Origin: Methylohalomonas lacus
GTDB lineage: Bacteria > Pseudomonadota > Gammaproteobacteria > Methylohalomonadales > Methylohalomonadaceae
Direction of reading: 5' to 3'
Length of the DNA stretch: 64,000 nt
Assembly (NCBI RefSeq): GCF_024808875.1
Contig: NZ_JANUCT010000001.1
Location: 62,001-126,000 of the forward strand
In this document: positions 2,967 through 3,140 of the stretch, in pieces
How positions within the stretch are numbered: the stretch's first letter is position 1
Layout of the letters: every line of letters starts with the position of its first letter
Notes under the pieces: generated by a model
What the model was told of the DNA's origin: nothing
Database searches by the model: none
Seen by the model: only the letters and a program-made list of their open reading frames with translations
Program-made: the position numbers and the translations under genes

Positions 2967-3140
2967 GCGCGCGGCGCAAGCGCCGCGCGCGTATCTCGTC
3001 GTTCGTGAAGCGTATCTCGTGGACGGGATTCGGGATTGACAGATTAGCCCTGGCGGCAAAGTCTCGTTGACGAACGAGATACGAGATACGAGATACGAGA
3101 TACGAGATACGAGATACGAGATACGAGATACGAGATACGA
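2967..3140 (+). repeat. Heptamer-array intergenic element, copy 1
   Basis: Starts 5 bases after the stop codon at 2961. Parts in order: a perfect 10-bp GC hairpin (GCGCGCGGCG/CGCCGCGCGC, 2967-2990); a left arm with two TATCTCGT words (2992-3025); a spacer ending in GGCAAAGTCTCGTTGACGA; then a perfect tandem array of ACGAGAT, nine units (3074-3136) plus ACGA. The left arm is the reverse complement of array units, so a transcript could fold into a long stem. Three other copies occur at 33466, 56938 and 58541. Confidence 0.9.

Follow-up and report, generated by a model that had tools for sequence, protein, structure and literature searches.

Among the tandem repeats of bacteria that have a long unit, heptamers have, to our knowledge, been recognized for decades as the most common, and we know of no explanation for why the unit should be seven bases long. 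Inverted elements between genes are also familiar: REP/BIME hairpins let malE and malF be expressed unequally, and the attC sites of integrons, which carry 7-bp core boxes, lie just after stop codons.

According to Mrazek 2007 (as cited in the available text of PMC4679880), heptamers are the most abundant long-unit repeat class in most prokaryotic genomes, with slippage as the proposed origin; PMC4692102, in its available part, is a further source on heptamer repeats in prokaryotes. Paired repeats have been described in Geobacter metallireducens (Aklujkar 2009, PMC2700814). The available text of that paper gives three classes of site (class 1, four octamers; class 2, three repeats; class 3, five heptamers), in which tandem repeats form pairs, the partners lying on different strands and a variable distance apart; one class 3 pair is located between proB and proA. 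Another 49 elements, each with four heptanucleotide repeats, make up a family of their own. The same text proposes IHF/HU or an unknown global regulator as the binder of the paired sites and describes the class 1–3 sets as unique to that genome.

Here we describe elements of Methylohalomonas lacus in which the repeating unit is not the pure 7-bp array that some of them carry but two arms in inverted orientation, each as a rule (CGTNNNT)4CG and 30 bp long. The window, by which we mean the whole stretch of DNA analysed (64,000 nucleotides; positions 62,001 to 126,000 of contig NZ_JANUCT010000001.1), holds four copies of two types. In head-type copies (copies 1 to 3) the left arm is followed by a conserved spacer, a small hairpin and a pure array; short-type elements have an arm on each side of an unrelated spacer. 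Their parts are as follows.

2968..2989, + strand: GC-rich palindrome CGCGCGGC-GCAAGC-GCCGCGCG, an optional, variable module, 6 bp past the stop codon
2990..3019, + strand: left arm of copy 1, CGTATCT CGTCGTT CGTGAAG CGTATCT CG (four heptamers plus CG)
3020..3061, + strand: core spacer of copy 1, TTGACAG..CCCTGGCGGC, conserved among head-type copies by alignment
3062..3079, + strand: small hairpin of copy 1, TCTCGTT-GACG-AACGAGA, whose 3' arm continues into the array
3074..3140, + strand: ACGAGAT array of copy 1, perfect, 9.6 units, read as an expanded right arm
33468..33491, + strand: GC-rich head of copy 2, an imperfect palindrome a few bp past the prs stop codon
33492..33521, + strand: left arm of copy 2, CGTATCT CGTCGTT CGTGAAG CGTATCT CG
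33564..33581, + strand: small hairpin of copy 2, TCTCGTT-GATA-AACGAGA
33576..33670, + strand: ACGAGAT array of copy 2, perfect, 13.6 units, in the prs|rplY gap
56961..56976, + strand: partial extra arm of copy 3, CGTATCT CGTCGTT CG, then GGGCTGCGCCC
56990..57019, + strand: left arm of copy 3, CGTATCT CGTCGCT CGTGAAG CGTATCT CG
57074..57147, + strand: ACGAGAT array of copy 3, perfect, 10.6 units, in the gap where bamC and der converge
58541..58570, + strand: arm of the short-type element, CGTATCT CGTATCT CGTCATG CGTATCT CG, 6 bp from the start codon of der (− strand)
58571..58656, no strand: spacer separating both bamB|der arms, without likeness to other copies
58657..58686, − strand: inverted partner arm, reading CGTATCT CGTCGCT CGTATCT CGTATCT CG on the − strand and abutting the bamB stop codon (58687-58689)

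The neighbours of the four copies are, in order, genes for a periplasmic binding protein and an ABC permease (the latter starting ~64 bp beyond the end of the copy 1 array), prs and rplY (L25), the convergent pair bamC and der, and the pair bamB and der. An earlier note on this DNA had named four copies and the gene before each, correctly in every case, and the three perfect arrays that it reported are there. Its fourth copy, at 58541, also exists, but with a different layout (two inverted 30-bp arms and no long array). The GC-rich head that it took to be shared is present, yet it is a separable module that differs between copies and is missing at C3:120905 and C2:46619. Similarly, the TATCTCG words that it listed are real but form part of the fixed four-heptamer arm. 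Chance can be excluded for these repeats, because two array units (ACGAGATACGAGAT) match the window 36 times with up to 2 mismatches against 0.32 expected, and the 7-periodic CGTNNNT pattern CGTNNNTCGTNNNTCG matches it 37 times against 0.18 expected, with 0 matches for the 6-bp and 8-bp period versions of that pattern. At 18363-18403 the window also has a short imperfect tandem repeat of CAGATA/CAGACA.

Copies in the rest of the genome (2.76 Mb in 38 contigs) were counted by pattern searches and in retrieved stretches; relatives were compared at class level only. The pattern CGTNNNTCGTNNNTCG occurs 207 times in the genome and its reversed control 6 times. At least 15 copies have the conserved head, next to about 20 shorter relatives; a head query without the array gave 46 matches, with the conserved core at about 15 loci, and two-unit ACGAGAT arrays form about 18 clusters. 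The core of roughly 100 bp common to at least 15 copies has an identity of 75–100%, with one pair at 99%. A left arm was found in 13 of the 15 head-type copies, and it is better conserved than the core (mean identity 94% against 66%).

Within an arm, CGT..T is constant and NNN is free. Words swap freely between arm slots, with CGTCGCT, CGTTCCT, CGTGCCT and CGTCCCT as alternatives in the same frame, while the head-type arm reads CGTATCT CGTCGTT CGTGAAG CGTATCT CG. Four is the usual number of units: mixed-word runs in the retrieved stretches (n = 48) had four units in 32 cases, two or three in 13 (several being arms with a damaged word) and five in 3 (two of which, by eye, take in flanking sequence). 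The spacer between inward-facing arms measures about 20 to 170 bp. We read the pure array of head-type copies as a lengthened right arm. At the ppc copy (C11:78160-78349), a pure AACGACA array of about 13 units replaces ACGAGAT, and one arm of the small hairpin is altered to match this unit.

Arrays also stand at the edges of contigs. Four contigs terminate in ACGAGAT arrays, namely C26 (at its start, by prfB), C29 (at its end, by lysS), C27 (at its start, by thyA) and C19 (at its end, by folA). Thus, thyA|folA and prfB|lysS are probably single operon junctions split in the assembly, and since the arrays appear to have broken these junctions, the array lengths there are lower bounds. An artefact of the Illumina P7 adapter, whose end ATACGAGAT resembles the unit, was considered and rejected because the copies vary in flanks, core and words while their gene context is fixed.

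Genes in this genome were called with codon scoring. In every one of the 15 head-type copies, the left arm lies past the stop codon of a gene on the same strand. Five of them face a converging gene, where orientation is uninformative; the informative same-direction pairs all have one polarity (10/10, two-sided p = 0.002, 2 of the 10 depending on copies cut by contig ends). Among these tandem pairs are binding protein|permease, prs|rplY, nuoD|nuoE, and threonine synthase with a same-strand gene after it, and the prs|rplY and nuoD|nuoE copies lie within operons. In 17 of 20 short-type copies, by hand count, one outer end is no more than about 7 bp away from a stop or start codon.

At the RNA level, folding z-scores against shuffles were −4.4 and −4.0 for two head-type copies of the window and −5.1 for the bamB|der element. 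Covariation in the core helices showed no excess over shuffles. When both arms of an element are compared, their variable words are identical in 38% of cases in this genome (36% when shuffled) and in 28% in Latescibacterota (40% when shuffled), no better than chance. The stem is therefore a consequence of shared words, and neither covariation nor word matching demonstrates selection on it. Of 13 head-type copies, 2 (prs and nuoD) have a T-tract after the right arm, and the copies at C3:120905, C11:78157 and C6:166519 adjoin ordinary terminators. Since several copies (prs|rplY, nuoD|nuoE) are intra-operonic, most cannot act as strong terminators. A search of Rfam 15 at gathering score returned only a tRNA in the window, and the element was without a match.

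As to mobility, two distant copies with 99% identical cores indicate copying or conversion. Across 25 copies no target-site duplication was found (94% of shuffled flanks were equal or better), and the spacers of short-type copies are mutually unrelated. No autonomous partner with the same ends was seen in a check that covered the RAYT, and no insertion sequence (IS) bounded by the arms was seen among the part of the IS families covered; with the head as query, plasmid and phage collections gave no match. The only Y1 transposase (Y1_Tnp, RAYT) gene, at C1:12475-12807, was tried as a link to REPINs and rejected: it is flanked by inverted AAGGGGTCGGAGTGATTTAAT repeats that are unlike the arms and mark a separate element.

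These results bear on what the earlier note had proposed about placement and origin. Its view that the element follows stop codons in one polarity extends to the whole genome (15/15 head-type copies, 10/10 tandem pairs), and neither of the outcomes that it said would count against it, random placement or orientation and a left arm absent from other copies, occurred: placement is as just given, and the arm is there in 13/15. Its suggestions for origin and role fared less well. Support is lacking for the RAYT connection, given the unrelated repeats around the sole Y1 gene, for a classical MITE, given the lack of a target-site duplication, and for a general terminator role, given the intra-operon copies and the T-tract in only 2/13 head-type copies. 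As for novelty, the dispersed element is real, but unrelated genomes contain ACGAGAT arrays as well, in more than 100 stretches.

Few gammaproteobacterial families carry four-unit arms. The head was absent from 55 other gammaproteobacterial genomes, and the 16-mer CGTGAAGCGTATCTCG had 3 coding-like matches in 298 other Pseudomonadota genomes; across 141 gammaproteobacterial families, the degenerate arm pattern stands out only in this genome and a few others. Further afield, (ACGAGAT)3 was found in more than 100 stretches from genomes of many phyla. Around these arrays, CGTGAAGCG occurs 42 times within 150 bp upstream and 0 times within 150 bp downstream, with 9 occurrences in 300 kb of control flanks; many of the loci bearing it stem from one Latescibacterota genome. 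The degenerate arm pattern is strongly enriched over its control in Atribacteria (198 vs 0), two Nitrospirota (114 vs 9 and 70 vs 4), a betaproteobacterium (410 vs 77) and others. Among the matches listed, four-unit runs outnumber five-unit runs by 21 to 1 in Atribacteria, 12 to 1 in the betaproteobacterium and 5 to 0 in one Nitrospirota genome. The four-unit limit is not universal among carriers, since genome G353 (the source of L053) has CGTGAAT runs of up to 18 units (e.g. C6:22976-23103). Opposite-strand arm neighbours within 200 bp faced inward in 31 of 31 cases from six genomes, among the matches listed. At the foreign loci an upstream stop lay within 100 bp in 38 and a downstream stop in 16, counts that are only indicative because the ORF caller was crude and arrays are open in all frames.

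Phages carry the arm as well. It is present in 11 viral contigs, with four units in 10 of 13 occurrences, and the two contigs inspected have portal, major head or tail genes. In one contig (L295:6034-6097), a back-to-back pair of arms takes up all the space separating a long ORF of the tail region from the gene that follows; this ORF stops at the TGA within the arm word CGTGAAG. Side observations concern arrays in two other groups. At seven Vibrio loci, ACGAGAT arrays without arms directly follow apparent intrinsic terminators and their T-run. In Latescibacterota (eight loci), several arrays end in ACG plus a T-run, by which the element may double as a terminator there, and the two arms carry consistently different words (CGTGAAG vs ACGAGAT). 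Taken as sequence patterns, similar arms are found between genes in distant bacterial phyla as well as in tailed phages. This suggests that an intergenic element of this kind is widespread and has been overlooked.

The sequence itself shows the arm structure, the usual four units, the inward orientation, the placement at gene boundaries and the single polarity of head-type copies. One possibility is that the arms are paired inverted binding sites for a chromosome-organising or regulatory DNA-binding protein that reads CGTNNNT every 7 bp, with the RNA hairpin incidental. The fixed 30-bp arm with its constant CGT..T and free NNN, the better conservation of arms than of spacers, and the same architecture in G. 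metallireducens, for which the available text of PMC2700814 proposes IHF/HU or a global regulator, all suit such a protein. However, steady polarity after stops and intra-operon sites far from promoters are unusual for transcription factors, strict inward orientation at variable spacing better suits a hairpin or terminal repeats, and no candidate protein emerged; we regard this explanation as rather unlikely. That the repeats are plain 7-bp simple sequences made by polymerase slippage, tolerated between genes and forming neither an element nor a function, is already a weakened idea and, in our judgement, quite improbable. Mixed-word arms usually ending at four units, the 31:0 inward orientation (among the matches listed), the common ~100-bp core and the identical words in other phyla are all left unexplained by it; what it does account for is the arrays, given the abundance of heptamers in most prokaryotes (Mrazek 2007, via the available text of PMC4679880), the differing lengths of the pure arrays and the arm-less arrays of Vibrio.

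A non-autonomous transposon (MITE) of a known insertion-sequence family would have arms like these as its terminal inverted repeats, and near-identical copies at distant sites and the occurrence in phages would follow; the missing target-site duplication, the unrelated short-type spacers, the lack of plasmid or phage matches to the head and the absence of an arm-bounded IS in the part of the families covered make it very improbable. We give still less credence, a slight chance at best, to intrinsic (Rho-independent) terminators whose stem is oversized: the right arm is not followed by a T-tract in 11 of 13 head-type copies, several copies lie within operons (nuoD|nuoE, prs|rplY) and others adjoin ordinary terminators (C3:120905, C11:78157, C6:166519), although the placement after stop codons and the arrays that pass into T-tracts at the prs and nuoD copies and several Latescibacterota loci are what a terminator would look like. 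The reading that we tentatively favour, at a little short of an even chance, is an intercistronic element of REP-like kind, dispersed and probably mobile, which would form a hairpin in mRNA and whose array would arise by slippage. Its dispersal is supported by the at least 15 copies of a ~100-bp core with 75–100% identity, and slippage by arrays that stay perfect while flanks diverge and by the ppc copy, where the AACGACA unit matches its own hairpin arm. Also in its favour are the usual four-unit arms, their inward orientation, the position and polarity after stop codons, the intra-operon copies, the better conservation of arms than of core, the folding z-scores and the arms in phages. Weighing against it are the lack of a target-site duplication and, in a check that covered the RAYT, of an autonomous partner, a sole Y1 transposase gene with unrelated flanks, short-type spacers that are unrelated, unlike those of a normal MITE, and, for selection on the hairpin, arm words unmatched beyond chance and core helices whose covariation does not exceed shuffles.

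On the REP-like reading, the elements would spread as non-autonomous, REPIN- or MITE-like DNA through a putative enzyme that would recognize the 7-bp-periodic arm, and they would persist only between cistrons, where genes stay unbroken. In mRNA the arms would pair, giving the upstream cistron a long hairpin at its 3' end. By analogy with REP/BIME at malE-malF, this hairpin would most likely slow 3' exonucleases and so could lead to unequal expression of the upstream and downstream genes of one operon. The ACGAGAT array would have formed once the element was in place, as replication slippage lengthened its right arm. We think it unlikely that these are a class of mobile DNA new to science, present in several phyla and tailed phages, with ends made of inverted 30-bp four-heptamer arms and inserted at cistron ends by a putative enzyme that reads the CGTNNNT periodicity.

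What matters more generally is that many heptamer repeats do not stand as free arrays: they make up arms some four units long, in pairs whose orientation is strictly inverted and which abut stop or start codons, in several phyla and in phages. The question of why seven bases can thereby be put to something definite, a module of 30 bp for which the binding partner, the mobility and the influence on mRNA are each open to testing. A practical caution concerns short-read assembly, which such arrays interrupt at operon junctions.

How, then, does the element compare with known systems? A literature search for the literal repeat sequences gave no match. With integron attC sites the differences are clear by inspection, since RYYYAAC/GTTRRRY boxes are absent here and the neighbours are core operon genes, not cassettes. 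REP/BIME/REPIN sequences resemble the element as inverted repeats that lie scattered between cistrons and past stop codons and fold into RNA hairpins, and many dispersed intergenic copies in inverted pairs are found here too; but the arms here are four heptamers, not imperfect palindromes with a GTAG/GGAG head, and no RAYT matches them. By inspection, GTAG precedes the GC head in copy 1 only and is absent at copies 2 and 3, and other copies lack the head itself. Pure intergenic 7-bp arrays are shared with GGGAATC of Xanthomonas, GGGGA(T/C)T of Nostoc and other cyanobacterial heptanucleotides, which the available text of PMC4692102 presents as G-rich and G-quadruplex-forming and without report of inverted arms or a fixed four-unit length. 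Perfect copies in variable number characterize the arrays here, not the mixed-word four-unit arms. The TAACTGA repeats of marine Beggiatoaceae (MacGregor 2015, PMC4679880) are also intergenic 7-bp direct repeats with many copies in distant groups. As the available text has them, they form single direct-repeat sets of one fixed word, mostly just upstream of start codons, without paired four-unit arms or a conserved head, whereas here the unit is ACGAGAT and head-type copies begin after stop codons. The earlier note called the element new, which has to be qualified, since paired tandem heptamer or octamer sites have been described in G. metallireducens (available text of PMC2700814). There the words are GTTGCTYN, TCTCCGTS, MTYCTGA and GGACCGG as opposed to CGTNNNT, and pure arrays, present here, do not figure in that text. 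Judged by arrangement, these Geobacter sites are the closest architecture found, with different words: in the portion of PMC2700814 available, as in the arms here, tandem-repeat sites stand in opposite-strand pairs at variable distance.
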